Of a stretch of 27,868 bases of DNA, positions 730-24,383 are shown piece by piece; position 1 is the first letter of the stretch, and every line of letters begins with the position of its first letter. The DNA comes from Gemmatimonadota bacterium (lineage in GTDB: Bacteria > GCA-2686955). Made by a program: the position numbers and the translations under genes. The notes under the pieces are model-generated. The model was not told the DNA's origin and searched no databases. It saw only the letters and a list, made by a program, of their open reading frames with translations. The DNA lies in the NCBI GenBank assembly GCA_002686955.1, contig NYZA01000136.1, positions 1-27,868 of the forward strand, read 5' to 3'.

Positions 730-2613
730 GGAGATCGTCCAGGCGCCGGCGACGTATTCACTCTCTCCGGCCCATGTGCGGTAGCTGAGCCGGACTCGGT
801 AGATGCCGGCGGTGGTCACGTCCACATCGACGACTTCGTAGCTGTTGTCGTAGGAGCTCGACGAGGCGATCACCGCGCCGAGAGGATCGATCAGATCGAG
901 GTCGATATCGGCTTCGAGCGGATCGTCGGTGTATCCGGCGTTCGGATTCGAGTCCCAACACACGACCACCTTGAGCCGTTTGCCCGCCGAGACATGGCCA
1001 ATCGCCTTCTCGAGGTGCCCGCCGGAGAAGTCGGCCGCTTCGAGCACACCGCCCTTCCATCGGCCTGCGACGGCCGAGGTCGCCGCGACCGTGCCGTCCA
1101 CTCCACCGGTGCCGTCGAGCTCGCTCAGACGTCGATCCCCTTCGATGTTGTGAACTCCGGAAGCCATCAGCAGCGCCTTGAGCGCCTCGGGCCACAACTT
1201 GAGTCCCGGATCGGCCTCCATGCAGATCGCGGCGATGCCCCCGATGACCGGGGCGGAATAGCTTGTGCCGCTTCCCACCGAAGAGGTGGGACAGGTGCCC
1301 GGACTCGCCAGAGTCAGGCTCGTGATGTTGGTCCCTGGACCCGCCACTTCGGGCTTCTCACGATCCCCGTTGGGAGAGATCGGATCCCGTCCCGAGGACG
1401 AGGAGCTCATGATGTCGTCGACTCCGTCGCAAGTGTTGCGATCATCGTAGTTCGCGACAGTGCATATGTTGAAGCCGTTGCCCGGACTGGTGAGATAGTT
1501 GCTGTTTCCGGAGTTCCCGGCGGAGTCGTCGGCGAACACCCTGGCATTGCGGACGATGTAGTCGATATGTCTGTCGTGCTCGTTGAGTTGGCCGTTCGTC
1601 GTGAATCCCCACGAGTGGCTCTGAAGATCGGCGTTGGCGGCGCCCGCATCGATTGCTCCGGCCATATCGGAATCGCTGTAGCTTCCACCGTTGGCGCTGT
1701 AGAAGCAGGCGCCGTGCGCGATCCCCTTGTAAGTGATGTTGCTCGAGACCATCATGCCGGTGCATGCGGTGGAATGCTGGTCGACATTGATGTGGGTCGG
1801 CTTGTTGGCACCCATATCGCAGACAAGGCATGTGTTGTCGCGATCGGCGCGGCTGTCTTCGACATGTGCGACGACGACGCCGGCCCCGGTGAGGCCGTAG
1901 GCCCAAACACCCGGGTCGACATTGGTGGCGCAAGACTGAATGTCGAGCTCATCGGCGTTGTCGCTCCACGCATCGTAGAGATGATCGATCGATTCGTCGC
2001 TCTCGACCTCGGCCACCGCGGCCGCGGGAAGATCGACGTAGATCAGTGGGGCCAGGGCGCTGGCGTAGCGGATCTCACCGCCGAGCATCCGCAGGCGAGA
2101 GGTGATCTCGCGCTGGGCCTCTTCGGCGGTGGTGCGAAGCTCCGCCAAGCGGAACTCCTTCTCGTGTCGGGTTTCCGCATCGCTCGCTCCCGGCAGTTCC
2201 CGGGCAGGCAGAGCGATGGAGATCGGGTCGGCATGAAGCCAAATGGCCACCGGAATCGTCTCGTCGGGGGCCGCTTCGGTGAGTCGGGCGGCGAGGACCG
2301 GAGTCTTCTTTCCCAGGCTTGCGCGCCGCGCGGCCGCCTCGGCTCGCAAGACCTGCTCGGCGTCGACCGCGCGCCCGGTCGCGTCCCAGGCCACATCGAT
2401 GAGCAACTGAGTCTCGGTGTCGCGCACCTTCGCACGTCGAAAATCGCGCCCGGTTCGCGGCAGGCTGACCTCTACCTCGTGCTCGGAAACCAGCCGGGCG
2501 GCATCGAGAGCGTGGAGATGCGCGGCGACCGAAACCGCGTCGGGCTCGGCCTCCGGACGCGATGCGCCCGCGGCGAGCGATAAGCTGAGAGTAAGCGGGA
2601 TCGAGATGTGCAC
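721..2613 (-). CDS. Secreted subtilisin-like serine protease (S8 family)
   Basis: This is an exported S8 peptidase with an N-terminal signal, a propeptide, a catalytic domain and a C-terminal beta-sandwich. I prefer the GTG at 2613 because GAGGAG lies 6 nt upstream and a hydrophobic signal stretch (ISIPLTLSLSLAAGA) follows directly. An ATG at 2652 would add 13 residues that contain arginines and also give a plausible signal peptide. Numbering from that ATG: a propeptide-like region at about 130-230; the catalytic acid region HVEDS at 263-267; catalytic His293 in HSTACTGM; oxyanion Asn380 in AGNSGNS; and catalytic Ser464 in GTSYSAP. Residues 555-643, with ADIDLDLIDPLG, resemble the KP-43-type C-terminal domain. 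The acid motif is unusual, with Glu-Asp where DTG is normal. The likely role is extracellular or periplasmic proteolysis. The gene is divergent from the SNF2 gene and convergent with the RF2-like gene. Confidence 0.88.
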   Translation of the reverse strand: MHISIPLTLSLSLAAGASRPEAEPDAVSVAAHLHALDAARLVSEHEVEVSLPRTGRDFRRAKVRDTETQLLIDVAWDATGRAVDAEQVLRAEAAARRASLGKKTPVLAARLTEAAPDETIPVAIWLHADPISIALPARELPGASDAETRHEKEFRLAELRTTAEEAQREITSRLRMLGGEIRYASALAPLIYVDLPAAAVAEVESDESIDHLYDAWSDNADELDIQSCATNVDPGVWAYGLTGAGVVVAHVEDSRADRDNTCLVCDMGANKPTHINVDQHSTACTGMMVSSNITYKGIAHGACFYSANGGSYSDSDMAGAIDAGAANADLQSHSWGFTTNGQLNEHDRHIDYIVRNARVFADDSAGNSGNSNYLTSPGNGFNICTVANYDDRNTCDGVDDIMSSSSSGRDPISPNGDREKPEVAGPGTNITSLTLASPGTCPTSSVGSGTSYSAPVIGGIAAICMEADPGLKLWPEALKALLMASGVHNIEGDRRLSELDGTGGVDGTVAATSAVAGRWKGGVLEAADFSGGHLEKAIGHVSAGKRLKVVVCWDSNPNAGYTDDPLEADIDLDLIDPLGAVIASSSSYDNSYEVVDVDVTTAGIYRVRLSYRTWAGESEYVAGAWTISSP

Positions 2614-2619
2614 GGCTGG

Positions 2620-2625
2620 CTCCTC
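2620..2625 (-). promoter_or_regulatory. Ribosome binding site deciding the protease GTG start
   Basis: The reverse strand reads GAGGAG here, 6 nt before the GTG at 2613. The upstream ATG at 2652 has only a weak AGGT before it. This supports starting the protease at the GTG. Confidence 0.55.
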
Positions 2626-2722
2626 ACGAGTAGATCGGGACGATGGCGGCATCCGGACCTAGCGTGTCTGGTCGATCCGCGTGCGCGCACCTCAAGGGTA
2701 AGCGCTCTCTCGACCCATCTCT

Positions 2723-2753
2723 CTCTCGATCGAGAGCGCGATAGGCGCCTATC
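2723..2753. promoter_or_regulatory. Paired 14-bp palindromes in the divergent promoter region
   Basis: In the 264-bp gap between the divergent protease and SNF2 starts, two perfect inverted repeats sit almost back to back: CTCTCGATCGAGAG at 2723-2736 and GATAGGCGCCTATC at 2740-2753. Their centres are 17 bp apart. A gap between divergent genes is a natural place for operators, so they may bind a dimeric regulator; that is inference. The rest of the gap (2614-2722 and 2754-2877) shows no further structure I can defend. Confidence 0.35.
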
Positions 2754-2877
2754 CACTATCGACAGCCCGCACGCCCGGAATCACCGCTCTCCTGAAGCTC
2801 GCGAAGCAGCGAGCATCGACGCTGTTGGGCTACTCTTGGCGGTCGCCCGATCCGATGACTCAAACCGAGCCGCACCG

Positions 2878-5772
2878 ATGTCGACCACGACCATACGCTC
2901 TCTCGATACCGCGATCCTCGATTCACTCAGCGTCGAGGCGAGTGACAAGATCATCGTTCGAGCTCTCGATCTGCTCAAACGGGGCCGAATCGATCGGCTC
3001 AGCGCGAAGGGCGACCGGATCGAAGCCCGGGTGTCGGGCTCGAGCTCGCGTCCCTATCCAGTGACGGTCTCGCTGACCTCCGATGGGATCGCCGTCGATT
3101 GTGGATGTCCCTTCGATTGGGAACCGATCTGCAAGCATGGAGCGGCGGTGATCCTGGCGGCGAGCGACGAACGAGAGGTCGCGCGACTGGCAGGGAGGAT
3201 CGGTGGAGAAGAAGCCGGTCGCGACGACGAGCCCGACGGCGCTGGGACCGCGGAGACCGGCGCCGAATCGTATCTCGCGATCAGAGAGCAAGAGATTGCG
3301 GTTCGAGTGCAACGCGGGCGACACGAAAAAATGCGAATCCGTCGCATCGAAGGGGGAATGGTCTTCGGGCGTTTTCGCGTAGAGGGTCCGGATGGCGAGC
3401 GTTCCTACGACGTGCAGATCCGCGATGCTCTTATCCCCGTGAATCGGTGCAGCTGTCCCGATTTCCATGTGAATATGCTCGGCACTTGCAAGCACATCGA
3501 GGCGGTATTGCATCGCGCTAGAAAGAGCGCCGGACGCAAGTTCGACAAGCTTTCCCGCACTCGACCCGAGATCGCCCGCGTCGCGGTTCGCAGAGACGAT
3601 CATCCACGTGTCGTTCTGCTGCCGGCGGCCCGGCCATCGCCCGAGCATCGGCGAATCGAGGGACGTTTCTTCGACGCGGGGGGCGTGCTCGCGAGCGATC
3701 CGCGAGTGGCGATTCCGAGAATCCAGGAGTGGAGTCGCCGCATCCCCGATCTCGTCGTCGACGAGGATGTACGTGTCTACCTCGATCAGATCCTCTGCGA
3801 CGATTCGAATGGCAGCAGGGAAGAGGAGATCCGCCGTGAAGTCGCCGCGGCGGGCAGCCGACTGAGAGGGTTCCGGGGGCAGCTCTACCCCTATCAGGTG
3901 GAAGGGGCCGCCTTCCTCGCCGGGCGCGGCTCGGCTCTGCTGGCCGACGACATGGGCCTCGGCAAGACAGTGCAGGCGATCGCCGCTGCGTTGCACCTTC
4001 GAGGCCGCGGCGATGTGGAAAGGGTGCTCATCGTGTGCCCCGCTTCGCTCAAGCACCAATGGGCGAAGGAGATCGAGCGTTTCGGAGGCATCGAGCCATG
4101 CGTGATCTGGGGCGGGCCGAAGGAGCGGCGGCACCTCTATGCACGACGCGCGCCCTTTACGATCGTCAACTACGAGCTCGTCATTCGAGACGAGAAGCTG
4201 GTCGCTGAGCTCGATCCCGACCTGCTGATACTCGACGAAGCGCAACGGATCAAGAACTGGCGCACAAAGACGGCGGATCGAGTGAAGCGGATTCCGGCGC
4301 GACAGGTTTTCGTGTTGACCGGCACGCCTCTGGAAAACCGTCTCGATGATCTCTACTCATTGTTGCAAGCGGTCGAACCTCGGGTGCTGGGGCCGCTCTG
4401 GGCCTTCAACCACCGTTTTTTCAAACCGGTCGAAAGCCGCGCCGGAAATGCGAGAAAGCGTCCGCGGGGGATCGGGCACAGAAACTTGGACGAGCTTCGC
4501 AGGCGGATTCGGCCGATTGTGCTTCGCAGAACACGCGAGAAGGTGCTCACCCAGCTCCCCGAGCGGATAGAGAACCGTTTCTATCTGGAGCTCACCCCCG
4601 CACTGCGAAGCTTCATGGAAGAGGGCGTGCAGGCCGCGGCGACAATCGCCGCGCGAGCGGAGAAGCGCCCACTGACACCGGCGGAGGAGAAACAGCTTTT
4701 CGCCGCGATTCAGCGCGCGAGACTCGCCTGCAATGCCGGTTCGCTCGTGGATGACGAGTGCCTCGATTCTCCAAAGCTCGATGAGCTGACCCGAATTCTA
4801 GAGGACTTCGCGACGAACGGAACGCGAAAAGCGGTGATCTTCAGTGAATGGGAGCGGATGATCCGCATGGCGGCGGAAAAAGCGCGCGAGATCGGGCTCG
4901 GTCACGAGCTGCTCTGCGGGCGAGTGCCGACGAAGAAGCGAGGTGCGCTCCTGGACCGGTTCCGCGACGACCCGGACTGTCGCTTGCTATTCTCTACCGA
5001 CGCGGGTGGAGTGGGCTTGAATCTCCAGTGCGCCGACACCGTGATCAACCTCGAGCTGCCCTTCAATCCGGCACGGCTAGATCAACGGATCGCGCGGGTT
5101 CACCGGCTGGGACAGAAGAGGCCGACGCACGTGATTCTTCTGATCTCCGAGCGCTCTATCGAAACGGGAATCGAGAGGAGTTTGACGCGGAAGAAGGAGC
5201 TCTTCGAAGAGGTGCTCTCGGAGAATGCGATGGCGACGGAGCTCGATTCCGTTCCGGGCCTGCTGAGGGCGATTCGCCCCGTTCTGGAAACGCTCGACCC
5301 CGAATCGTTCCCACCCGACGCTGAGGAGAGGCTCGACGCGGCACGCGACGACGATCTGAGTGAGGGCAAAGAGGCGCCGCCTCGAACGGAACAGGAGAGA
5401 CGCGAAGGCGAAAGAGCGGCCGAAGGGTTGTTCCGTAATGCCTATAGGAAGCTGGCGGCGGCCAATGCACTGGTCGACGCGGGGATCCCAGGCGAAGCGT
5501 TCGGTCGCGTACGCGAATCGCTCGAAGCGGCGATTCGGGCGGTGGCTCCCGAAGGGGCGGAAGAGCTGCCACCTACGCGGCTCCTTCACGAAGTGTTGCT
5601 ACCGGCGGGGTTGGTGAGCTTCGATGCCGCGGCCCTCTTGGCTAGTGCGATCGAAGTTGAGCGAGCCTATGGTGCTTCAGATGCACAGCCGCCCACCACA
5701 CTGGTATCGCAGATGCTCGATAGAGCGTCGGCGCTTCTGGCCGATCTCCCCGATGGACCGCGAGCGCGGTGA
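2878..5772 (+). CDS. SNF2-family DEAD/DEAH-type helicase with two SWIM zinc fingers
   Basis: This 964-residue Swi2/Snf2 ATPase is predicted to translocate on duplex DNA and remodel protein-DNA complexes in the cytoplasm. Two SWIM fingers come first: C75-x-C77...C85-x-H87 and C191-x-C193...C204-x-H206. The helicase core follows from about residue 335. It has Walker A DDMGLGKT (Lys363), motif II DEAQ (453-456), motif III LTGTPLENR, and motif VI QRIARVHRLGQ (from Gln736), which are hallmark SNF2 sequences. Residues beyond about 790 form an acidic then helical tail (around KLAAANALVDAG) that I cannot assign; a HEPN-like fold is possible but unproven. The frame is open back to 2608, but ATG 2878 fits the family N-terminus. 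No strong ribosome binding site precedes it. Tandem SWIM fingers are unusual. The tail ends 28 bp before the glycosyltransferase gene. Confidence 0.9.
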   Translation: MSTTTIRSLDTAILDSLSVEASDKIIVRALDLLKRGRIDRLSAKGDRIEARVSGSSSRPYPVTVSLTSDGIAVDCGCPFDWEPICKHGAAVILAASDEREVARLAGRIGGEEAGRDDEPDGAGTAETGAESYLAIREQEIAVRVQRGRHEKMRIRRIEGGMVFGRFRVEGPDGERSYDVQIRDALIPVNRCSCPDFHVNMLGTCKHIEAVLHRARKSAGRKFDKLSRTRPEIARVAVRRDDHPRVVLLPAARPSPEHRRIEGRFFDAGGVLASDPRVAIPRIQEWSRRIPDLVVDEDVRVYLDQILCDDSNGSREEEIRREVAAAGSRLRGFRGQLYPYQVEGAAFLAGRGSALLADDMGLGKTVQAIAAALHLRGRGDVERVLIVCPASLKHQWAKEIERFGGIEPCVIWGGPKERRHLYARRAPFTIVNYELVIRDEKLVAELDPDLLILDEAQRIKNWRTKTADRVKRIPARQVFVLTGTPLENRLDDLYSLLQAVEPRVLGPLWAFNHRFFKPVESRAGNARKRPRGIGHRNLDELRRRIRPIVLRRTREKVLTQLPERIENRFYLELTPALRSFMEEGVQAAATIAARAEKRPLTPAEEKQLFAAIQRARLACNAGSLVDDECLDSPKLDELTRILEDFATNGTRKAVIFSEWERMIRMAAEKAREIGLGHELLCGRVPTKKRGALLDRFRDDPDCRLLFSTDAGGVGLNLQCADTVINLELPFNPARLDQRIARVHRLGQKRPTHVILLISERSIETGIERSLTRKKELFEEVLSENAMATELDSVPGLLRAIRPVLETLDPESFPPDAEERLDAARDDDLSEGKEAPPRTEQERREGERAAEGLFRNAYRKLAAANALVDAGIPGEAFGRVRESLEAAIRAVAPEGAEELPPTRLLHEVLLPAGLVSFDAAALLASAIEVERAYGASDAQPPTTLVSQMLDRASALLADLPDGPRAR

Positions 5773-5786
5773 GCGAAGTTCTTGTC

Positions 5787-5792
5787 AGGAGG
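5787..5792 (+). promoter_or_regulatory. Perfect AGGAGG supporting a TTG start
   Basis: AGGAGG ends 8 nt before the TTG at 5801 and decides that unusual start for the glycosyltransferase. Confidence 0.65.
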
Positions 5793-5800
5793 ATCGCTAG

Positions 5801-7264
5801 TTGAAATCGATTGCAGCGGTTGTCACCCAGATTCCGGGCGAAGTGCTCAATGACACGCTCAATGATCTGAGGCGATCGCCCCTGATCGCGGCGATCTGCA
5901 AGGTCGTGCCGGCGGAGGACGATGCCGGCGGGGGTGATGACCGCGTCACAGCGAACCAGCTGTGGACATCGGACACCTTGGCGAAGGTCGCTCAGTGGCA
6001 TCGAGAACAAGGCTCGCCCGATCTTCTGTGGATTCTGCCCGGTGCTCCGCGCTTGCCGGAGGATGGAATCGCCCGTCTCGCGCGCGCTCTGCATGAAGGC
6101 GGCGGGGCGATCGCATATGGGGACTACACGGAGATCTTGCCCGACGGGGAATCGCTCTCGCACCCGCTGGTCGCCTACCAGACCGGGAGCATCCGCGACG
6201 ATTTCGACTTCGGATCGGTGCTCCTCTTCTCGGGCGCTGCCATGAGCGAGGCGGAAGCGCGGATGGCGAAGGGGCTAAACCACGGAGCATTCTACGATTT
6301 GCGGCTGCGTGCCTCGGAAAGCGGTCCGGTTCTTCATCTCCCGGAACCGCTCTATTGGCGGAAGGCCATCGACGCCCGCGCCACCGGTGAGAGCATCTTC
6401 GACTATGTCGATCCGGCTCGGCGCGACTACCAGTTGGAAATGGAGAGAGTCGCAACCGAACACCTGAAGCGACTCGGGGCCTGCCTCCCAGCGACCGAAC
6501 GCCCACTCGTCGACGGCGGTTCCACCTTTCCGGTGGAGGCAAGCGTCGTGATTCCCGTACGAGATCGAGCTCGGACCATAGGAGACGCGATCCGAAGCGC
6601 CACGGCGCAGAAGACCGATTTCTCATTCAACGTGATCGTCGTCGACAACCACTCCACCGACGGCACAACCGAGTCGATCGCCGATTTGGCGCTCGATGAT
6701 CGGAAGATCGTCCAGCTGATCCCGGAACGCCGCGATCTTGGCATCGGCGGGTGTTGGAACCACGCCATCCACTCCGAGATTTGTGGTCGCTACGCGGTGC
6801 AGCTCGACAGTGACGATCTTTACCACGGCCACGACGTTCTTGCGCGCATCGTCGCCAAGCTGAACGAAGGGCCGTACGCGGCACTGATAGGCGCCTACAC
6901 GACCGTGGACTTCGATCTGCAACCCCTTCCGCCCGGGCTCGTCGATCATCGCGAATGGACGGACGCCAACGGACATAACAACGCTTTGCGCGTTCACGGC
7001 TTGGGAGCGCCACGAGCCTATCATGTCCCGACCCTGCGGACAGTAGGATTCCCCAACGTCAGCTACGGCGAGGACTACAGCGTGATGCTCGCCCTCTCGC
7101 GGCGCTACCGGATCGCCCGCATCTACGACTCGCTCTACTGGTGCCGCCGTTGGGAAGGCAACACCGACGCCGATCTGCCCCTCGATATAGCCAATCGGTA
7201 CGCCACCTACAAGGATCGGCTAAGGAGCCTGGAGATTGTGGCCAGGCAGAGAGGTCGGGCTTGA
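5801..7264 (+). CDS. Two-domain family 2 glycosyltransferase
   Basis: This protein has 487 residues and starts at TTG behind a perfect AGGAGG. The C-terminal half (about 246-450) is a classic GT-A/GT2 domain. It has ASVVIPVRDRA at its first strand, the nucleotide-sugar site VVDNHSTDGT, and the metal-binding DSDD at 336-339. The N-terminal half (1-240) looks like a second, degenerate GT2-type domain. It keeps an AYGDYTEI strand and the RDDFDFGSVLLF stretch seen in GT2 proteins, but I find no clear DxD. There is no signal peptide or membrane segment, so it acts in the cytoplasm. The donor and acceptor sugars cannot be told from sequence. It is the first gene of a coupled trio: its TGA (7262-7264) overlaps the TTG of the DUF4922 gene. 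A role in assembling a cell-surface or peptidoglycan-linked glycan is inferred from SpoIID in the same operon. Confidence 0.85.
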   Translation: MKSIAAVVTQIPGEVLNDTLNDLRRSPLIAAICKVVPAEDDAGGGDDRVTANQLWTSDTLAKVAQWHREQGSPDLLWILPGAPRLPEDGIARLARALHEGGGAIAYGDYTEILPDGESLSHPLVAYQTGSIRDDFDFGSVLLFSGAAMSEAEARMAKGLNHGAFYDLRLRASESGPVLHLPEPLYWRKAIDARATGESIFDYVDPARRDYQLEMERVATEHLKRLGACLPATERPLVDGGSTFPVEASVVIPVRDRARTIGDAIRSATAQKTDFSFNVIVVDNHSTDGTTESIADLALDDRKIVQLIPERRDLGIGGCWNHAIHSEICGRYAVQLDSDDLYHGHDVLARIVAKLNEGPYAALIGAYTTVDFDLQPLPPGLVDHREWTDANGHNNALRVHGLGAPRAYHVPTLRTVGFPNVSYGEDYSVMLALSRRYRIARIYDSLYWCRRWEGNTDADLPLDIANRYATYKDRLRSLEIVARQRGRA

Positions 7265-8217
7265 GCTGGGAGAAGCGCCTCATTGCGCGCCACTCACCCA
7301 GCGATCGGATCGACGCGGCGATCGACATGCTCTTCCGAAAGCAACGCCGAGACTGGCAACTTCTCCGAGAGAACGAAGCCACACTTGCGGGGGCTCGTGT
7401 TCGAAGGCTCGTCGATGGCCCCGACAGTGTTATCGCACAGGAGAATCCTGGTAGACACGGTTCGGTCAGCGCAAAGGTCGACACCGCATCGGTCGCAAGC
7501 AGGCCCTGCTTCCTCTGTGAGCACAATCTCCCAGAGCAGGAGCGGGCGATCGGATTCGGCTCCGATCTTTTCCTCCTGCCAAACCCGTACCCCATTGTTC
7601 CGCAGCATATTTCGATTCCCTCGAGGGCGCATGAAGCCCAAGCTATCGATGGACGGCTTCCGGACTTCCTGGCCTTGTCGAAGGCGATCGGGGGGGAACA
7701 CCTCGCTATCTACAACGGTCCCCGATGCGGAGCATCCGCGCCCGATCATTTCCATTTCCAGACGGGGCACATTCCCCACCCGCCCATCGAAACCGCAATC
7801 GAACGCGGCCGATCCAAGGGAAGGTGGACAGCAGTGGATAGCCTTGGCCGACGGGCCGTTGTGTTGCGCACACCCGACGCGGATGAAGCAGAGCGGAAGC
7901 TGCGCCTCGCGATCAAGGAGCTCGCAACGATCAACGACTCCGACGACGAACCGATGCTGAACCTCTTGGGCCGGTATCGCGGTGACGCCTACGAAGTGTT
8001 CTTCTTTCCCCGCGACCGTCACCGGCCGGACTGTTATTTCGCCGAGAGCGAGGAGCGGCTGCTCGTGAGTCCGGGCGCCATGGAGATGGCGGGCGTAGTA
8101 GTGCTTCCGCACGCGCGGGACTTCGAGCGAATCGACGCAGGTCAAGTGCGAGAGATCTTCGATCAGGTCACACTCGACAAGGACCGCTTCGAAGAATGGT
8201 GGGGGGAGCTTCGATGA
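7261..8217 (+). CDS. DUF4922 protein, GalT/HIT-like nucleotidyltransferase or phosphorylase fold
   Basis: This 318-residue protein starts at a TTG (7261) that overlaps the previous stop as TTGA and has GAGAGG upstream; ATG 7327 is a less coupled alternative. It carries CFLCEHNLPEQ (Cys83, Cys86), typical of DUF4922 and reminiscent of the zinc CxxC of GalT. It also has GASAPDHFHFQ (His163, His165, Gln167), an HxHxQ signature like that of galactose-1-phosphate uridylyltransferases and Ap4A phosphorylases, where the second His takes the nucleotide. I infer a covalent-nucleotidyl enzyme that may make or break a nucleotide sugar for the neighbouring glycosyltransferase. No substrate is known to me. 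It is predicted to be cytoplasmic. Its TGA (8215-8217) overlaps the ATG of the SpoIID gene, so the three products are probably made in fixed ratio. Confidence 0.8.
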   Translation: MSWEKRLIARHSPSDRIDAAIDMLFRKQRRDWQLLRENEATLAGARVRRLVDGPDSVIAQENPGRHGSVSAKVDTASVASRPCFLCEHNLPEQERAIGFGSDLFLLPNPYPIVPQHISIPSRAHEAQAIDGRLPDFLALSKAIGGEHLAIYNGPRCGASAPDHFHFQTGHIPHPPIETAIERGRSKGRWTAVDSLGRRAVVLRTPDADEAERKLRLAIKELATINDSDDEPMLNLLGRYRGDAYEVFFFPRDRHRPDCYFAESEERLLVSPGAMEMAGVVVLPHARDFERIDAGQVREIFDQVTLDKDRFEEWWGELR

Positions 8218-9551
8218 CATTTCTGCCGGCACGCGAACCGGATCTGAGCGTTGGGCTCGTGTCGAATGCGAAAGCGATCCGGTTGCGTCTGCTCGGCAGA
8301 TTCGATCTGGGTGGGCGGCGCGCGCCGGCCGGCAATTATGAGGTCAAGCTAACGGGCGGAGTCCTCTCCATCGCTCCAGCATCAATGGACGGCGATCCAC
8401 TCGCAACCGGTCGCGAGCTTCATCTCATTCCGCTGTCGGAGCTGGAATCACGATTCGAGATCGAAGCCACCATCGGTATCGGATTCCATTGGGAACAGAC
8501 CGAGCTGCAGACGTTTTGCGGCGCACTGAGGCTGTGCTACGGGAGCGACGGTCGCCTCACTGTAGTCAACGAGGTGCCTTTGGAGACGTACTTACGTTCC
8601 GTGGTCTGCTCCGAGATGAGCGCAAGTTCGCCAATCGAGTTGATCCGGGCACACGCAATCGTCTCTCGAAGCTGGCTGCTTGCACAATTGTCGCCTAAGC
8701 CATCGACCGGCGCCGTCGCGAGTCGGCGCGGTGAGATGATCCGAATCTACGATCGCGAGTCTCATGCCGATTTCATGGTCTGCGCCGATGACCATTGTCA
8801 GCGCTATCAAGGCATGGGGCGAATCATGCCGGACTCCGTGAGCGGAGCGATCGACGACACACGAGGAAGCGTGCTGGTTTATGGCGGCGAGGTCTGTGAT
8901 GCCCGGTTCTCGAAGTGCTGTGGTGGGGTCACTGAGGCCTATCGTGCTGCCTGGCAGGATCGAGATATTCCTTACTTGAGCCCGATCGGCGATGCAGCGG
9001 ATCGCAAGCTGCCAACGCCTTCGCTCTCCGACGAATCCGTTTTTCGTCGCTTTCTCACCGATCCTCCTCCCTCGTTCTGCAATTGCGACGATTCAGATCT
9101 GCTCCGCGCGCTCCTACCCCATTCCGATATCGAGACAGAGTTCTATCGCTGGCGAGAGCGACGAGAGGTGCATGAGCTGGCACGCCTTCTCGGCGAAAAG
9201 GGAAATATCGACATCGGCCGCCCGCTACGCCTGGAGCCGGTGGAGCGAGGCACCTCAGGACGATTGGTGCGCGTGCGCATCACTGGAGACCGCGGTGAGA
9301 TCGTGGTCGGCAAGGAGCTGGAGATTCGTCGCCTGCTCTCGCCCAGCCATCTCAGGAGCTCCGCGTTCCTTGCGGAGACGGTAGGCGATCCGGACAGTCC
9401 CGATGCGTTCATATTGCATGGTGCCGGCTGGGGTCATGGCGTAGGTCTATGCCAGATCGGAGCCGCGGTGATGGCATCGCGCGGCTATGGGCACCTGGAG
9501 ATCATGCGCCACTATTTCCAAGGGGTGAGCCTGGTTCAGGCCTATGAGTAA
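8214..9551 (+). CDS. SpoIID/LytB domain protein without a signal peptide
   Basis: This protein has 445 residues and starts at the ATG of an ATGA overlap, with GGGGAG 6 nt upstream; an ATG at 8196 is less well placed. The SpoIID core is VPLETYLRSVVCSEMS, where Glu134 matches the catalytic glutamate of the SpoIID lytic transglycosylase. It is followed by AHAIVSRSWLLAQL. Near the C-terminus is the signature GWGHGVGLCQIGA and then HYFQGVSL. SpoIID cleaves peptidoglycan glycan strands lacking stem peptides. The N-terminus (MTFLPAREPDLSVGLVSNAK) has no signal peptide or anchor, which does not fit a periplasmic enzyme. Nothing here implies sporulation, since SpoIID/LytB proteins are widespread in non-sporulating bacteria. 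Its stop is 1 bp from that of the convergent gene. Confidence 0.88.
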   Translation: MTFLPAREPDLSVGLVSNAKAIRLRLLGRFDLGGRRAPAGNYEVKLTGGVLSIAPASMDGDPLATGRELHLIPLSELESRFEIEATIGIGFHWEQTELQTFCGALRLCYGSDGRLTVVNEVPLETYLRSVVCSEMSASSPIELIRAHAIVSRSWLLAQLSPKPSTGAVASRRGEMIRIYDRESHADFMVCADDHCQRYQGMGRIMPDSVSGAIDDTRGSVLVYGGEVCDARFSKCCGGVTEAYRAAWQDRDIPYLSPIGDAADRKLPTPSLSDESVFRRFLTDPPPSFCNCDDSDLLRALLPHSDIETEFYRWRERREVHELARLLGEKGNIDIGRPLRLEPVERGTSGRLVRVRITGDRGEIVVGKELEIRRLLSPSHLRSSAFLAETVGDPDSPDAFILHGAGWGHGVGLCQIGAAVMASRGYGHLEIMRHYFQGVSLVQAYE

Positions 9552-9552
9552 A

Positions 9553-10497
9553 TCAGAAACCGTAGCCGACGGGTCCGTAGCCCGGGACGCTCACGTAGCC
9601 TCGGGTATTGCCCGAGTCGGAGTTGCCTGCACTGAAACGTGACGACCAGAAGTTGTCTCCACCGCCGCTCCCACCTCTGGCTCCAGCGGCATTGCGCTGT
9701 GCGGCGAGATAGAGATTGTCGGTTGGCTGCGGGAATCCCTCGTATCCCGTGTTCCCGTTGCCATCGAGCCAGTATGAACCCGGCATGATCGGATAGCCGA
9801 GAAGCGAGCTCCAGATCGCCCACTCCGTCCGAGGGAGCTCCCGGCCGTTTACAAATACCTTGGTGTCGCCCCTGGAAGCGCGGGGGTCGAGCTTCCCGTG
9901 GGTATGACCGGGCAGCATGAAGCCGAATGCCTGGTGGCCCCAGACACCATAGAGTCCGCTCTTGGCGTCGTACCAGTAGTTTCCTGGGCGGGGAGGCGCC
10001 CCATACGCCTGGGTCATCTCCTCGATCCGCGCGCGATCCAGCGTGCCCCCGTTGATGACCACCTTTCCCTCGTCGTGCAATGGGCTCGGCATCTCCGCCG
10101 AGGCCCCTTCGGCCGTCCCACCGCCATCGATCGTCTTCGTCGAGCGAACGAACACCAAGGTCTCGGAATCGGCGTTCGGCTCCCCCCCCGCCGCATCCCC
10201 CGCCAAGAAAACCAGGGTGATCGTTTCGTTCTCGAACCTGCCGGTGAAGGGAAGCTGCTCTCCCAGCGCGGTCATCACCCCGCTGATCTTCGACGATACC
10301 ATCTGAGCCTGAACCCGATAGATCATGCCGCCACCGCCCATCGTCCCAGACAATCCTCCGCTAGCATTCCGCTGCAACTCGAGAGAGATCGCCTCGCCCC
10401 CGAGGCTCGCCACATAGCTGCCGTCGATCTGCGTCGCGGTCCCTCGGCCGCCGGTCCCGGCCAGAATCGCAAGAAGGAGAAGTGCTCGAATCGCCAT
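9553..10497 (-). CDS. Secreted protein of unknown function with paired PGxYW motifs
   Basis: This protein has 314 residues. The ATG at 10497 has GGAGG 6 nt upstream and begins a clear signal peptide (MAIRALLLLAILAGTGGRGTA); the frame is open further upstream but that part is not protein-like. Residues about 22-130 look like a small beta domain (LQRNASGGLSGTMGGGG, then FTGRFENETITLVF). The C-terminal half has two related units, RPGNYWYDAKSGLYGVWG and MPGSYWLDGNGNTGYEG, separated by a GDTKVFVNGRELP stretch. I have seen this PGxYWYD...FINGREL pattern in other uncharacterised bacterial proteins but cannot name a function. The tail is Gly/Ser/Asn-rich and low in complexity. The product should be periplasmic or extracellular. 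The gene is divergent from the lamin-tail gene. Confidence 0.75.
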   Translation of the reverse strand: MAIRALLLLAILAGTGGRGTATQIDGSYVASLGGEAISLELQRNASGGLSGTMGGGGMIYRVQAQMVSSKISGVMTALGEQLPFTGRFENETITLVFLAGDAAGGEPNADSETLVFVRSTKTIDGGGTAEGASAEMPSPLHDEGKVVINGGTLDRARIEEMTQAYGAPPRPGNYWYDAKSGLYGVWGHQAFGFMLPGHTHGKLDPRASRGDTKVFVNGRELPRTEWAIWSSLLGYPIMPGSYWLDGNGNTGYEGFPQPTDNLYLAAQRNAAGARGGSGGGDNFWSSRFSAGNSDSGNTRGYVSVPGYGPVGYGF

Positions 10498-10569
10498 GTG
10501 AATCCTCCGCCCCACCGAATGCCGCCCGCGAAGATCATAGCCTGAGCTGAGCTCTCGGTCGCAGGGCGC

Positions 10570-10598
10570 GTGACATCTCTTTCGCGGAGGGTTATATA
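10570..10598 (+). promoter_or_regulatory. Possible sigma70-type promoter for the lamin-tail gene
   Basis: GTGACA at 10570-10575 and TATATA at 10593-10598 are 17 bp apart and match the -35 and -10 consensus at 5 and 4 of 6 positions. This A+T-rich patch stands out in the 164-bp divergent gap and would give a leader of about 55 nt. It is judged by eye only. Confidence 0.35.
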
Positions 10599-10661
10599 GG
10601 GCTGCATAGAGGGGGTTATAGTGAACAGCCGTCTCAAGATCTGAACAAGAAGGGCTCAAGC

Positions 10662-12245
10662 ATGCCGCTCGCCTCTACTCTGCTCGTCGCTCTCATTCCG
10701 GCCTCGAACGTCTCGGCTGAACCGCCGGCCGCTCTGGCGGGCAACATCTTTCTCAACGAGGCCATGGCCGACAACGTCACGACCATCGCCGATGGCTTCG
10801 GCCAATTCGACGACTACATCGAGGTCTACAACTCCAGCGCGGCACCGATCTCCCTCGATGGCTACGGTCTCACCGACAACATCCTCGTCCCGTACAAGTG
10901 GCCCCTGCCCGGCGCCGCGATCGTGCCCGCGGGCGGGTATTTGCTTCTTTGGGCGGACGGCGACCTTCCTCAGGGACCCCTGCACGGGCCCTTCGCCCTC
11001 AACAGCGGTGGCGAGACCCTGACCCTCACCGACGATATCGGATTCGTAGTCGACATCCTCAGCTTCACCGATCAGGCACCGGACGTTTCCTGGGGACGGC
11101 GCACGGACGGCGCTCCCCAGAAAGGCTACCTCGTCCCGACACCGGAGGGCCCGAATCCGGACAACGCACCACCGATCGTGTGGGACACCGACGCCTCGGT
11201 TGGCTTCCCTTCCCCCGGGCAGAACATCGAGGTGACCGCCGAGGTTCAAGAGGACGATGGCGATTCGGTCACGGTCACGCTCTACTACGATGACGGTGTC
11301 GGTTTCACGCCGGTTCCGATGGTCCTCGACAGCGATCTCTACACCTGTTCGGTTCCGGCCCATCCCTATGGTGAGACCATCTCTTACTATGTCGAGGCGG
11401 TGGATGAGCACGGCGCAGGCACCCTTCGCCCGCCCGATGCACCGGGCACTACACGGAATCACCAGGTTTTCGTGGGCATCACCGCGGTTCGTATCAACGA
11501 GTTCATGGCCGACAACGCCACGACCATCCAGGACGAAGAGCTGAAATTCGAGGACTGGATCGAGCTCGTCAATCTGGCGGATTTCGATGTCGATCTATCG
11601 GGCTTCTACCTCACCGACGACGCGGCGGATACGAAAAAGTGGCGCTTCCCCGATGGAACCGTGATCGATTCGAGCGGATACTTGCTCGTCTGGGCCGACA
11701 GCGACGATGGCGATCCGGGCCTGCATACGAACTTCAAGCTCTCGGCATCCGGTGAGCACATCGGGCTTCATGCGCCAGGCTACATGGCGAATATTGCGCT
11801 GGACGAAACCGACTTCGGGCCTCAGGCCACCGATATTTCGGAAGGACGAGATGTCGATGGTGCTGGCACGATCGTCACACTGGCATCGCCCACACCGATT
11901 GCCCACAACGGCGGCGGAGGTTGGGTAGCGGTGGGAGTGCCCGATGATCCCCCTGTGACGGTCGCTCCGGGCGGCAACTTCGATTGTTACGGCGCGGTCC
12001 TCAACAGGAACACGACAGCCCAAGCACGGAACGCATGGACAGCCGCCCTTCTGCCCTTGGGTGGAGAGGTGTCGCCGGTTCTCGGCCCCCTTTCGGTCAC
12101 GTTGGGCGGCCTTGGAGTAGCGGGGACGGGACTCCATCAGAGCGTGCCCCCTGGTGCGGCGGCCGGAAGCTACACCTACGAAGTGCGCGCGGGCAACTTC
12201 CCGACGGAGGAGGCGGCCGGCGGTTTCCCGGTAGAGGTAGAGTAG
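10662..12245 (+). CDS. Secreted protein with two lamin-tail domains
   Basis: This 527-residue protein starts at ATG with AGAAGG upstream and has a signal peptide (MPLASTLLVALIPASNVSA). It holds two lamin-tail domains (LTD). LTD1 (about 28-165) starts with IFLNEAMADN, then DDYIEVYNSS, with WADGDLPQGPLHGPFAL near its end. LTD2 (about 276-415) repeats the pattern with VRINEFMADN, EDWIELVNLA and LHTNFKLSASGEHIGL. An Ig-like spacer (about 168-275) joins them. A C-terminal beta domain (about 425-527) has the VPPGAAAGSYTYEVR stretch common in large secreted proteins of uncultured FCB-type bacteria. Bacterial LTDs are thought to mediate binding or adhesion outside the cell; the ligand is unknown. The gene is convergent with a CotH gene that also ends in an LTD, with stops 3 bp apart. 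Confidence 0.85.
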   Translation: MPLASTLLVALIPASNVSAEPPAALAGNIFLNEAMADNVTTIADGFGQFDDYIEVYNSSAAPISLDGYGLTDNILVPYKWPLPGAAIVPAGGYLLLWADGDLPQGPLHGPFALNSGGETLTLTDDIGFVVDILSFTDQAPDVSWGRRTDGAPQKGYLVPTPEGPNPDNAPPIVWDTDASVGFPSPGQNIEVTAEVQEDDGDSVTVTLYYDDGVGFTPVPMVLDSDLYTCSVPAHPYGETISYYVEAVDEHGAGTLRPPDAPGTTRNHQVFVGITAVRINEFMADNATTIQDEELKFEDWIELVNLADFDVDLSGFYLTDDAADTKKWRFPDGTVIDSSGYLLVWADSDDGDPGLHTNFKLSASGEHIGLHAPGYMANIALDETDFGPQATDISEGRDVDGAGTIVTLASPTPIAHNGGGGWVAVGVPDDPPVTVAPGGNFDCYGAVLNRNTTAQARNAWTAALLPLGGEVSPVLGPLSVTLGGLGVAGTGLHQSVPPGAAAGSYTYEVRAGNFPTEEAAGGFPVEVE

Positions 12246-12248
12246 GCG

Positions 12249-15200
12249 TCAGCGGGGGGAATACACGTTGGGTGCGCCGGGTGAGGGCGCATCCAGAGTC
12301 ACCCACGTTGCCTGTCCATCGGGATAGCGGCCAATCGAAATATCGGCCGTCTGGGGCCCAAAAACCCACCGGTCGATCAAGTACGAGGCACCAAAAACCA
12401 GCGCGACCTCCTCACCGCCGCCACCGAGCTTGAACGAGGCGTGGTAGGTGCCCTGCGCGAGATCGTTGTCGCACCAGATGATGAGCGTGGCCCCGGGAGC
12501 GAGAGTCGTGGTCGGAATGGCCCAGCGCTGTGGGGCGCCCGAGAAATCGTCGGTCAAATAGAGTCCGTCCAACACCATCTGTTGGCTCGTCGGATTGAGG
12601 ATCTCGACCCAATCGTCGTACTCTCCGGCCTCATCGGCCAATGTCGTGTCATTAATCGCCACTAGCTCGTTGATCACGGGGAAGCCGACCGGGGGACCTT
12701 CAAGGAAAACCTCTCGCGAGATCGACGCCCATTCGTCGTCCCCATTCACCAAGAAACGCAGGTCGAGTCGATAGCCATAAGGATCGCCCAGGCCGGAGGG
12801 TACAAAGGTGTTCAGCGCGCGCGAGATGATCCGCCCCGGAGGCAGCACGAGCTGTCGCGCGTAGAGGGCGGAATCCAAATGGTGGATTCCATCCCAGGTT
12901 CTCAATTCCAAGACAACATCGCCTCGAACGAGATCGGGGCCTGCGTTGGTGAGCTCAATGGTCACCTCGATCGGGTCTCCTTCGGCCACCACCTGGTCGC
13001 TGAGCTCCAGCTCCAGCTGAATCGGCTGTGTCCACTGATTCGTCGTTCCGGGAGTCCGTCCATCGAGCTGACGCCATCGCAACGAATTGTCGGGGTAGCG
13101 TCCGTAGCTTCTGATGCCGCTCAGTTGGGCCGGAAGTGTCACCGAATCGACGATCGTACCCTGCGGCGCACCGACATCCCGCCCGAGACCTACCCAGCTT
13201 CCCGCGGCGATCGGTGAAGGGAGTGTGAAGTAAGCAAGACCGTGGGCGAGGATTGTATCGGCTGGCAGCGACCAACGCAGAGGATCGCCGGGATCGTCTG
13301 AAATCGCAAAGTCCACGAACGCGAATGGGCGGGAAGCGAGGTTTCGCACTTCGAGGGCCACCACGGTATCTTGGGCGCCGGGGATCAGTTCGGAAATCTG
13401 AATCAGAACGTGCTCCGGCGGCTCGACGAGTGGGAGTTGGAGATCGATCTCGGTTCTTCGTCCATCGATAAATGTCTCGATATTGGCCAACTCTGCCTCG
13501 TATGGCCCCACGAACTCCAGGCCACGCTTGTGTACATCGCGCAGCGCATCGGCTCGCATCTCGGCGACACGAGCGTCAAGGACCGCCGCGATCGTGTCCG
13601 CCGCCAGATGCTGGTTGAGATAGGAACGAAGCGTTTCGGTGTAGCGACGCATGAGGGGGGGGATGCCCACGACCCGGTTCCAGAGGCGATTCCACTCGCC
13701 GTCCCACTCCGGATACGCTTCGGTGCCGAAAACGATCGGCAGGGAGAGTGACATCGCCGACCAGCTCTCTCCGACGTCCCATGCTACCCATTTCCAGGGG
13801 GACGACGGTCCCTCTCGATACAGATAATAGTCGTCCGACGCCCAATCGCGGTTGGCGCTCACGATCTGGTGGCAGACTACGCCGAGGAACTGCTCCATGT
13901 CGACTCGCTCCTCGAGCCATGGCAAAATGTCGGCATCCGGAATCCTCTCGAGCCCTTCGACGAGCTCCAATATGTCGGCCCGGTCCCAGTCGTCGGCGAG
14001 CTTGGGGGAGTAGAGAGCGCGATACTCTTCGATTCCGTCGAGGCGCTCCAGCGATGCGTCAACGCGGTAGAGTCGACCCGCTGGGCTCCAACCCTGGCGC
14101 GCCACGAAGGCTTCGTCCACCCGCTCCATCTCGATGTGGACGCCGCGATACTCGCCGTTGTGCTCGAGTCGGATCGGAAATGCACGTGTGTGCGCGAGGT
14201 CGGTGCGCTCCATCAGGTCGACCGAAAGCAGCTCCCGTTGAATTGTCGGATCATCCCAGTTCGATCGAATGATGAGATCGTCGGAGCCGTGCAGAATGAA
14301 GCCATCGAGGTCGATACTCCACGACTTCTTCGGGTACCAGCGCGAGGATTTTCCGCGGTATGAGAGGGTGACCGGATCGATGAGAATGCCGTCGGCGACC
14401 AGAAGCCCGGGTACATCGACATCGGCCGTAGGGTCTTCGTCCAAGAGCGTCAGGTCGAGGGGATCGAGGAAAATCTCGTATCTAGGTAGCAACGAATCGA
14501 ATCGATCTCGTGGCCCCGCCGGGAGGGAGAAGGTGGTGTCGGATTCGTTGCCGTATAGATCGAACGCCACTATTGCATAGTGGGTCGTCGTATCGGTCGG
14601 AACGACGCACGTGGCGATCCGTCGAGTGTCGTGAATGGTGCGCCAGCCGCCCGCCACCCGCTGAAGAACCCGGTAGCCCACGAGATCGGTCTCTCCAGCA
14701 CGGGTCCAGCGCAGCAGCACTCCGCCGTACGTATCGAGCGCCACGACCGAATCGGGAGCCGCGGGCGCGCTCGAATCGAAGAGGTCGGCGGGGCGCAATC
14801 CGATGGCCGCGATGTCGTGATCGCCGCCCTGACTGGCCAGATCGATATCACAGGCGCCGTCTCCCACTGTCACGAGCGCCCGAATATCCACCGGCCTTCC
14901 CTTGCTGGACTCGGCGATGTAGTCGTATGCCGCTACTACTGTGTCCGACTCCGCGACCAAGCTCAGTGGAGCGATCCCGATTCCGTCCCGCAGATAGGTG
15001 GCGATGTGAATGGTGAGCTCGTAGACGCCGTTCGGAACCTCCAAGACGTAGCCGGACGCGCCGGCGCGTTGCTCCTGGTAGAGCGCCAGCTCATCCTGCG
15101 GGCGGCCATCCTCGAGCACGTCGAAAAGCCCCTCCCCCGTGAATCCGCCGATCGCGCCGTAGCCGTTGTTCCCCGTGTAGATCTGATCCGCGCCGTAGAC

Positions 15201-15347
15201 CGAGCCGTCTGAGAGGACGAGATCCACGGGCGATCCACACGCCACGGCGGCGGTGGTCTGGCCCGAACATGGCTGGGATAGTGCCAGCGCGGCAAGAGAG
15301 GCAATAGCGGTGCCTGCGCGGTTCTTCATACTTCCCTTCATCTTCAC
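12249..15347 (-). CDS. Secreted malectin / CotH kinase-like / lamin-tail protein (leftward copy)
   Basis: This 1032-residue protein starts at GTG 15347, which overlaps the beta-helix stop as GTGA; ATG 15341 or ATG 15329 (AAGGGA just upstream) are alternatives. A signal peptide comes first, then a malectin-like carbohydrate-binding domain (about 33-188, VACGSPVDLVLSDGSVYGAD) and a fibronectin III-like domain (about 195-275). The CotH domain (about 285-635) has LSYRGKSSRWYPKKSW (328-343), NRDWASDDYYLY (499-510) and VAWDVGESW (521-529). After it come a degenerate LTD (about 645-790), an Ig-like spacer and a final LTD (about 905-1030, INELVAINDTTLADEAGEYDDW). CotH family members are atypical protein kinases in spore coats and fungal surfaces; here the role is extracellular and unknown. 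It has the same architecture and length as the gene at 18821-21916. Confidence 0.87.
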   Translation of the reverse strand: MKMKGSMKNRAGTAIASLAALALSQPCSGQTTAAVACGSPVDLVLSDGSVYGADQIYTGNNGYGAIGGFTGEGLFDVLEDGRPQDELALYQEQRAGASGYVLEVPNGVYELTIHIATYLRDGIGIAPLSLVAESDTVVAAYDYIAESSKGRPVDIRALVTVGDGACDIDLASQGGDHDIAAIGLRPADLFDSSAPAAPDSVVALDTYGGVLLRWTRAGETDLVGYRVLQRVAGGWRTIHDTRRIATCVVPTDTTTHYAIVAFDLYGNESDTTFSLPAGPRDRFDSLLPRYEIFLDPLDLTLLDEDPTADVDVPGLLVADGILIDPVTLSYRGKSSRWYPKKSWSIDLDGFILHGSDDLIIRSNWDDPTIQRELLSVDLMERTDLAHTRAFPIRLEHNGEYRGVHIEMERVDEAFVARQGWSPAGRLYRVDASLERLDGIEEYRALYSPKLADDWDRADILELVEGLERIPDADILPWLEERVDMEQFLGVVCHQIVSANRDWASDDYYLYREGPSSPWKWVAWDVGESWSAMSLSLPIVFGTEAYPEWDGEWNRLWNRVVGIPPLMRRYTETLRSYLNQHLAADTIAAVLDARVAEMRADALRDVHKRGLEFVGPYEAELANIETFIDGRRTEIDLQLPLVEPPEHVLIQISELIPGAQDTVVALEVRNLASRPFAFVDFAISDDPGDPLRWSLPADTILAHGLAYFTLPSPIAAGSWVGLGRDVGAPQGTIVDSVTLPAQLSGIRSYGRYPDNSLRWRQLDGRTPGTTNQWTQPIQLELELSDQVVAEGDPIEVTIELTNAGPDLVRGDVVLELRTWDGIHHLDSALYARQLVLPPGRIISRALNTFVPSGLGDPYGYRLDLRFLVNGDDEWASISREVFLEGPPVGFPVINELVAINDTTLADEAGEYDDWVEILNPTSQQMVLDGLYLTDDFSGAPQRWAIPTTTLAPGATLIIWCDNDLAQGTYHASFKLGGGGEEVALVFGASYLIDRWVFGPQTADISIGRYPDGQATWVTLDAPSPGAPNVYSPR

Positions 15348-16540
15348 TGCAGCCAGCCGTCAGCGCCTGGTCCACCGAAGGCACCCATGTCCGCCCTGGG
15401 GCCGTTCGGATACCACATCGGCCAGTCGATCCCGTCCTCGGCCAGAGGATCGCCCGCGTCGATGCAGGGCGATCCGGGCGCGAGCACGTGATCCATGCCG
15501 CCATAGGTTGCAAAAGTTGGATCGGAATCGATGTTTCCCTCGCCGGTCCAGCCATTCTCGATGTCGGAGTAGCTGAGCGCAGTGGTCGAGAGACTATCGA
15601 GATATACGCTGGCGGTGTCGGAATCGAAAATGATCGTGCTGATCACGGTTCCGCGCCCACCTCCGCCGCCGGGATCCTTCTCGTAAGCCCGTATTCCGAA
15701 CGAATTCGATACAAAGGTGTTGTTGCCGACGATCGGATCCGCACCGTCCTTGATGGCTAAGGCTGTGTGGCCCCCGACTACGATGTTGTTCTCGATCAAC
15801 GCGGAAACCCGTTGCACCGAGAATCCCTTGTCTTGCGCATTCTCGACCACGTTGTAACGGCAAGCAGTGAAAGAGGTCCGAGGACCGCCAAGGTCGATGG
15901 CATCATCTTCGCAGTCATAGAACCGACTGTGAACGATCTCACAGCTATCGGGACTGTCGAAATCGATTGCATCCAATTGGCGAATGAAAGTGCAATCTTC
16001 TACAATTGCGCGCGCGTACTTTACGTTCAGTCCATCGCCGCCCGTGTTGTCGCTAAATGTGCAAGAAGTGAGCGATACGTCGGCGAAATACGACACGAAA
16101 GCGCCGCTCGCTCCCAGGCTGTCGGCGAATAGCTTGCTGCTTCCATGTTCGAAGGTGCAGTGCCGCAGGACCGATCCGCCGGCCGTCTCGCCGGCAATCG
16201 CTACGCTGCCCCAGACCGAGCCCGGAACGAGCCAAGTGAAGATCACCGGTTCCGCCTCGGTGCCGAGTACGTGAAGGGGGCCGCGCGACAGAATCCCGAC
16301 TCCCGGCCCGATCGCGAGCGTCGCACCGGCGCGGATCACGACCGTCGTGGTGCTGTCGATCTCCACATCCGAGAGCAGCTCGTGGCGTCCCGGTGGAACC
16401 AGGAGAGTGTCGGCACGCACCAGCGAGCACGAGGCGAATCCCTCTAGCGCATTCACGGCGCCGCCATCGGCGTGGGCGATCGCCCAGACACAGCACGCGG
16501 CAGTCGCCGCCATCGTGCGCGGACAAGATCTGCTGGTCAT
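15344..16540 (-). CDS. Secreted right-handed beta-helix protein (leftward copy)
   Basis: This protein has 398 residues from ATG 16540 and begins with a signal peptide (MTSRSCPRTMAATAACCVWA). A TTG at 16558 would add six residues. The body is a parallel beta-helix: repeated short rungs such as VSLTSCTFSDNTGGDGL, AIVEDCTFIRQLDAIDF and ALIENNIVVGGHTALAI stack as in pectate-lyase-like proteins. I see no catalytic site I can defend. The C-terminus (SYSDIENGWTGEGNID, then SPCIDAGDP, then RADMGAFGGPGADG) matches that of the beta-helix protein at 17139-18809, so the two are paralogues. Its stop overlaps the start of the CotH gene (GTGA), so they form a co-translated pair. Its promoter would have to lie in or near the lamin-tail remnant. 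Confidence 0.83.
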   Translation of the reverse strand: MTSRSCPRTMAATAACCVWAIAHADGGAVNALEGFASCSLVRADTLLVPPGRHELLSDVEIDSTTTVVIRAGATLAIGPGVGILSRGPLHVLGTEAEPVIFTWLVPGSVWGSVAIAGETAGGSVLRHCTFEHGSSKLFADSLGASGAFVSYFADVSLTSCTFSDNTGGDGLNVKYARAIVEDCTFIRQLDAIDFDSPDSCEIVHSRFYDCEDDAIDLGGPRTSFTACRYNVVENAQDKGFSVQRVSALIENNIVVGGHTALAIKDGADPIVGNNTFVSNSFGIRAYEKDPGGGGGRGTVISTIIFDSDTASVYLDSLSTTALSYSDIENGWTGEGNIDSDPTFATYGGMDHVLAPGSPCIDAGDPLAEDGIDWPMWYPNGPRADMGAFGGPGADGWLQ

Positions 16541-16571
16541 CTCTCGTGGCACTCCCAATCACGACTGAAGT

Positions 16572-18809: not shown

Positions 18810-18820
18810 AGGTCAGATCG

Positions 18821-24353: not shown

Positions 24354-24383
24354 GATGTATTCCCTCTTCGGACCCGTGTGGGT

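Follow-up and report, generated by a model that had tools for sequence, protein, structure and literature searches.

A co-inherited trio of GT2, DUF4922 and SpoIID-family genes with a likely role in the cytosolic recycling of peptidoglycan fragments

In a contig of a Gemmatimonadota bacterium (GenBank assembly GCA_002686955.1, contig NYZA01000136.1; the whole stretch of 27,868 nucleotides that was analyzed is referred to here as the window), three overlapping genes encode a GT2 glycosyltransferase, a DUF4922 protein and a protein of the SpoIID/LytB family. From the analyses presented here we conclude that this trio is a real, ancient and strictly co-inherited module conserved across phyla, and that its role in peptidoglycan recycling is well supported by the genomic context in several of them. 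It is likely that the trio forms a cytosolic branch of the recycling of peptidoglycan fragments. The original prediction for this DNA had proposed a small complete pathway, in which a GalT-like enzyme activates or salvages a sugar nucleotide, the GT2 protein attaches the sugar and the SpoIID protein works on the same glycan. Co-occurrence, a gene fusion and shared descent uphold the idea of one functional unit; the sugar-attaching chemistry is unsupported as stated, and the peptidoglycan-recycling neighbourhood had been overlooked.

Conservation and genomic context of the trio

A scan of contigs for DUF4922 yielded 80 loci from Bacteroidota, Deltaproteobacteria (a label taken from NCBI titles that covers some Myxococcota), Planctomycetota, KSB1, Gemmatimonadota, Acidobacteriota and Ignavibacteria. 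A GT2 orthologue is present near DUF4922 in 73 of these loci and a SpoIID orthologue in 57; across phyla, the GT2 proteins share 40-59% identity with the window copy and the SpoIID proteins 39-52%, and the catalytic motifs are intact. At the genome level, co-occurrence was evaluated in 247 Bacteroidota genomes, selected with a filter that asked for at least 90% completeness (values not displayed) and using E below 1e-30 as the threshold for the presence of DUF4922. DUF4922 was detected in 37 genomes, and trio-type SpoIID and trio-type GT2 in 36 each; the full trio occurs in 35, two genomes are without one member, and 210 have none. All three genes lie within 15 kb in only 12 of the 35 genomes, in five no two members are linked, and in genomes G274, G326, G222, G278 and G214 trio members are more than 100 kb apart on one contig. 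Given that the members are often unlinked and yet co-occur, linkage does not account for the pattern, which is explained by a shared function. The association of the three genes in the loci is clearly above chance, and co-occurrence is near-perfect in the Bacteroidota genomes; the statement in the original prediction that the same trio occurs in Bacteroidetes, without an assigned function, agrees with the loci, the genome counts and the literature.

A natural GT2::DUF4922 fusion of 830 amino acids (L107:671-3160) was found in the Bacteroidota genome G320, where a second GT2 copy adjoins SpoIID and an AmpG-type permease gene. In the GT2 and SpoIID trees (the latter a quick tree), the window copy groups with Myxococcota, KSB1 and Gemmatimonadota, apart from Bacteroidota; the DUF4922 tree was read for the Bacteroidota, which form one group in all three protein trees. 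Among the 41 nearest relatives of the host, DUF4922 is present in one, the host itself, and a sample of 205 Planctomycetota genomes included one genuine DUF4922 genome.

The regular neighbours of the trio in Bacteroidota are genes for an AmpG-type permease, a secreted protein with golvesin, fn3 and amidase-like parts, NamZ, a MurK-type kinase, MurQ and a GHL10 glycosidase. These and the following names are family labels, since several scores fall below the NCBIfam equivalog cut-offs. The AmpG-type permease (TIGR00901) is also found near the trio in Planctomycetota, where two loci (L004 and L006) include relatives of DgcA (or L-Ala-D/L-Glu epimerase) and DgcN, and L004 additionally a NagZ-like GH3. 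Locus L008 carries Mpl, an AmiA-type amidase (DUF1460, PF07313) and a GH3 close to NagZ, and DUF1460 is located 5' of GT2 in L003 and L038, as assigned by eye from similarity to the L008 protein. AmiA of the DUF1460 family is said, in work of 2014 by Xu et al., to strip the peptide from a peptide-bearing disaccharide of N-acetylglucosamine (GlcNAc) and 1,6-anhydro-N-acetylmuramic acid (anhydroMurNAc, or anhMurNAc).

Two further proteins were observed at these loci. In a subset of Bacteroidota a double-GNAT acetyltransferase is encoded between DUF4922 and SpoIID (L030:8917-9867, L080:5855-6778), and it also occurs near the AmpG-type gene in the Planctomycetota locus L006; it is a possible fourth member of the module. 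In 14 Bacteroidota loci SpoIID is followed by a gene for a secreted GH9-like protein (cluster c16, L024:10463-12934 and relatives) with a deacetylase-like C-terminal part, its domains having been judged by eye.

The setting is partly known, given that an operon containing the trio is already in print for Tannerella forsythia. In this bacterium, Tanf_08345-08385 form one transcript under the control of GppX, with the order xanthan lyase, gtf, gtf, lytB, ampG, ybbC, murT, murK, murQ (PMC5388701); one of our loci (L077) is the contig that carries it. The trio (gtf, gtf, lytB) lies there between the gene annotated as xanthan lyase and ampG, and is co-transcribed with ybbC (NamZ) and murTKQ; in contrast, the window carries the trio without the remaining genes of the operon. 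The same report labels the DUF4922 protein a glycosyltransferase and the SpoIID protein an amidase enhancer (PMC5388701). AmpG of T. forsythia imports GlcNAc-anhMurNAc and GlcNAc-MurNAc (MurNAc, N-acetylmuramic acid), and the authors point out that, with no AnmK predicted, its use of anhMurNAc lacks an explanation (PMC7670621). Although this operon has been described, our literature search turned up no assigned function for the trio, in line with the original prediction. In the papers searched we saw no mention of the co-inheritance across phyla, the SpoIID protein devoid of a signal peptide, the Apa2-like fold of DUF4922, the fusion or the relation to AnmK.

Motifs, folds and location of the three proteins

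The window SpoIID protein matches PF08486 (E 7.6e-23, 81.4 bits against a cut-off of 23) and TIGR02669 (164.9 bits, cut-off 83.3). On TIGR02870, the equivalog of stage II sporulation protein D, it scores 126.4 bits, below the cut-off of 234.75; by these scores the protein belongs to the SpoIID family but is not the sporulation protein itself. Glu134 of the SEM motif is invariant in 25 homologues and aligns with VVASEM of PDB entry 4rwr. With the SpoIID proteins of PDB entries 4rwr, 5i1t and 5txu, the trio copy shares the SpoIID domain, the region of the SEM glutamate and a C-terminal GxGHGVGxxQxGA block; unlike them, it is without a signal peptide and carries an N-terminal FHWE block and the signature motifs CADDHC (residues 190-195, within CADDHCQRYQG) and FSKCCGG.

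A SpoIID lytic transglycosylase is expected to be membrane-bound or secreted and to face the peptidoglycan, but the trio protein differs in this respect by hydropathy, for none of the 57 trio SpoIID proteins in the loci showed a signal peptide or an N-terminal hydrophobic segment. The test was also negative for 73/73 GT2 and 80/80 DUF4922 proteins and for the cytosolic controls MurK and MurQ, and it was positive in 72-94% of the members of four secreted neighbour families. In contrast, the majority of intact SpoIID paralogues from related genomes carry a signal peptide. A hydrophobic N-terminus was clear in six of these SpoIID-family paralogues (L095, L096, L098-L101); other paralogues were ambiguous or cut at a contig edge, and L094 starts with a different domain. 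Since the trio SpoIID has no N-terminal signal and the controls behave as expected, it probably acts in the cytosol. In the host genome (84.5% completeness) no SpoIID protein other than the window copy was found. This probable location had been missed in the original prediction.

An export route that escapes recognition would place SpoIID in the periplasm, and the trio could then belong to a polysaccharide or protein glycosylation system with no part in recycling. In earlier work the operon of T. forsythia was termed glycosylation related (PMC5388701), and GT2 proteins and nucleotide enzymes are common in glycosylation clusters; however, with recycling neighbours in several phyla, no flippase or polymerase gene recognised at the trio loci, and the signal peptide absent from all 57 SpoIID proteins, we regard this explanation as highly improbable.

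The DUF4922 protein matches PF16269 (E 7.4e-44, 149.7 bits against a gathering cut-off of 23.6). The CxxC and HxHxQ motifs noted at the outset correspond to CFLC (residues 83-86) and HFHFQ (163-167, in the wider block GASAPDHFHFQ), and both are invariant in 34/34 homologues. A PDB search with the sequence gave chance matches only; the structure model (mean predicted local distance difference test, pLDDT, 95.1) has its best fold match in the yeast diadenosine tetraphosphate (Ap4A) phosphorylase Apa2. Over the entries 4i5t, 4i5v and 4i5w the match extends through 261-266 residues with Z 22.7-23.2 and a root-mean-square deviation (rmsd) of 2.9-3.1 Å (for 4i5t, Z 23.2, 266 residues, 3.1 Å and 16% identity), and the HxHxQ catalytic motif of Apa2 is present in DUF4922. 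In contrast, sequence identity is just 16-17%, and DUF4922 scores 20.4 bits on the Pfam family Ap4A_phos_N, below its cut-off of 23.1. GalT belongs to the same histidine-triad superfamily and shares the CxxC and HxHxQ motifs, but its fold match is far weaker, with Z about 7-8 and rmsd about 5 Å for the GalT entries and Z up to 8.9 for GalT-like uridylyltransferases. The specific assignment of DUF4922 as GalT-like is thus weakened by the much closer match to Apa2.

The nucleotidyl-transfer fold with its conserved HFHFQ would also suit a nucleotidylyltransferase that converts MurNAc-1-phosphate or another sugar-1-phosphate and gives UDP-MurNAc directly, in place of MurU; SpoIID and GT2 would then provide MurNAc or use it. 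T. forsythia must convert salvaged MurNAc to UDP-MurNAc, and in 2018 the route was still being sought (PMC5790795), but later papers ascribed this step to AmgK and MurU. In addition, the host of the window carries MurB and so has a de novo supply of UDP-MurNAc, and the fold of DUF4922 is nearer to Ap4A phosphorylase than to GalT; this activity seems quite unlikely.

The GT2 protein (PF00535, E 1.4e-16, 61.3 bits against a cut-off of 23.3) was correctly recognised as a glycosyltransferase in the original prediction, which overlooked that it is built of two GT-A domains. The N-terminal domain (about residues 1-225) has a YSD-type motif, and the C-terminal PF00535 domain (about 245-487) contains QLDSDD (DxD-type) and GEDY (acidic base motif), which are kept in 30/30 homologues. 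No membrane segment was detected by hydropathy. In the model (pLDDT 89.3), the C-terminal domain has matches among many GT2 enzymes, and K4 chondroitin polymerase is the only two-domain structural match (Z 24.6, 403 residues aligned). This polymerase and heparosan synthase have, like the trio protein, two GT-A domains in a single soluble protein, and the former aligns across GT2 residues 1-487; in contrast, identity to them is 13-20%, and the domains are arranged differently, as indicated for the K4 enzyme by an overall rmsd of 21.6 Å.

This similarity bears on the possibility that the trio is a system for building and shortening a glycan in the cytosol, in which GT2 would alternate two sugars in the manner of chondroitin or heparosan synthase, SpoIID would cut the product and DUF4922 would salvage or limit the sugar nucleotide, so that recycled amino sugars are stored or made into an oligosaccharide. 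SpoIID enzymes act on glycan chains, and the active-site motif of the trio SpoIID is intact; nevertheless, the different arrangement of the domains in K4 chondroitin polymerase speaks against it, no gene related to export or polymers is among the regular neighbours of the trio loci, and we know of no cytosolic polymer of this kind. We consider this explanation unlikely.

Proposed role and relation to AnmK

According to the recycling role that we favour, fragments would be cut outside the membrane by the amidase, NamZ and AmiA and imported by the AmpG-type permease, and once in the cytosol the peptide-free murein sugars would be processed by the trio. Small glycans taken up in this way would be attacked by SpoIID at their MurNAc bonds; our first guess would be the 1,6-anhydroMurNAc end, in which case MurNAc would be passed on to MurK/MurQ or used in UDP-MurNAc salvage. 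DUF4922 would transfer a nucleoside monophosphate, bound in between to a histidine of HFHFQ, so as to make a sugar nucleotide or to cleave one with phosphate, and the two-domain GT2, acting directly with DUF4922, may use or consume the same sugar nucleotide or form a glycosidic bond with it; such sharing fits the GT2::DUF4922 fusion. More tentatively, and with considerable doubt, we propose that SpoIID, without AnmK, cleaves open the 1,6-anhydroMurNAc bond or rearranges it, and that DUF4922 and GT2 activate the product. Compared with the recycling of the Escherichia coli type (AnmK-MurQ, NagZ-AmpG), the importer type and the kind of fragments are the same, and NagZ-like GH3, MurQ and Mpl are encoded beside trio copies; the difference is that AnmK is a kinase whose fold is not that of the trio proteins.

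AnmK was detected in 15/37 trio-bearing and 155/210 trio-less Bacteroidota genomes (p 1.6e-4, in counts that ignore phylogeny). Through the loci, 51 DUF4922 genomes were reached, of which 25 have AnmK; a trio SpoIID is missing altogether from six of the 51, each of which has AnmK, as does G313, a genome of the Bacteroidota sample with DUF4922 and no trio SpoIID. Among DUF4922 genomes, AnmK is thus present in 7/7 SpoIID-less cases versus 33/80 (p about 0.003, uncorrected for relatedness), which is suggestive, but no proof, of a partial overlap between the functions of SpoIID and AnmK. Possibly, the trio covers anhydroMurNAc where AnmK is missing. AnmK was not found in the T. forsythia genome (G086), nor in the host genome, where, at 84.5% completeness, the negative result carries little weight. 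A strict replacement of AnmK was rejected in view of the 15 trio-bearing genomes in which both are present.

Several points weigh against the recycling role. The window trio itself is not adjacent to recycling genes, and MurQ is not enriched in trio-bearing Bacteroidota (30/37 versus 148/210 trio-less, p 0.23). About 40% of trio-bearing genomes also carry AnmK, so the trio is not simply its replacement; moreover, Planctomycetota account for five of the seven genomes without trio SpoIID, and relatedness is ignored in the AnmK counts. The absence of signal peptides comes from a hydropathy test, and from neither a trained predictor nor an experiment. Canonical SpoIID acts on polymeric glycan, and the GlcNAc-(anh)MurNAc disaccharide that is imported does not contain the MurNAc-GlcNAc bond that it usually cleaves. 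Finally, the recycling role does not account for what GT2 would do in such a step.

Gene layout in the window and implications

The features of the window are listed in Table 1. The TTGA and ATGA overlaps that join the three genes were confirmed in coordinates and frames. For DUF4922 and SpoIID, open reading frames that begin further upstream (at 7141 and 8196, respectively) had also been listed; the additional parts are extensions, and the alignments with homologues begin near the overlaps. The SNF2/SWIM helicase gene could share one transcript with the trio; no helicase-like gene was recognised beside the trio at the other loci examined.

Table 1. Coordinates of the trio and of other features of the window
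Feature	Position	Strand	Remarks
SNF2/SWIM helicase	2608..5772	+	Ends 28 bases before GT2
AGGAGG ribosome-binding site	5787..5792	+	8 bases 5' of the GT2 TTG start; read directly from the sequence
GT2 gene	5801..7264	+	487 amino acids, TTG start
TTGA overlap	7261..7264	+	GT2 stop / DUF4922 start
DUF4922 gene	7261..8217	+	318 amino acids, TTG start within TTGA
ATGA overlap	8214..8217	+	DUF4922 stop / SpoIID start
SpoIID/LytB-family gene	8214..9551	+	445 amino acids, ATG start within ATGA
Open reading frame	9553..10659	-	368 amino acids, glycine/serine-rich C-terminus, no Pfam match; convergent with the trio
Lamin-tail protein	10662..12245
CotH-kinase protein	12249..15347	-	Large
Right-handed beta-helix protein	15344..16558	-
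Right-handed beta-helix protein	17139..18809	+	Chlamydia PMP-type repeats
CotH-kinase protein	18587..21916	+	Large
Part of the dcw cluster	22995..27849	-	ftsZ, ftsA, ftsQ, murB; about 13 kb from the trio
murB frame	26566..27849	-	Mur ligase C-terminal match at its start

The two beta-helix proteins flank the middle of the window, and one of the CotH-kinase proteins has a lamin tail and the other a malectin domain. Given that murB lies in the window, the host makes its UDP-MurNAc de novo, and the trio would serve there in salvage or turnover; the idea that it is an essential stand-in for MurA/MurB in the host was rejected on account of the same gene. The searches of the host genome covered AnmK, AmpG and SpoIID, and an AmpG of the type encoded beside the trio elsewhere was found in two contig-end halves, with 47-56% identity to the AmpG of the neighbourhoods described above.

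If it is true that SpoIID acts on the anhydro bond without AnmK and that the DUF4922-GT2 pair activates the product, this would represent a third route for the recycling of peptidoglycan sugars, besides AnmK-MurQ and AmgK-MurU. The trio names three candidate enzymes for the use of anhydroMurNAc fragments in T. forsythia and other bacteria without AnmK; it predicts an intracellular enzyme of the SpoIID family, and it gives DUF4922, a domain of unknown function, a specific candidate role. In T. forsythia the salvage of MurNAc is essential, and for this reason the steps carried out by the trio could be relevant to this bacterium.

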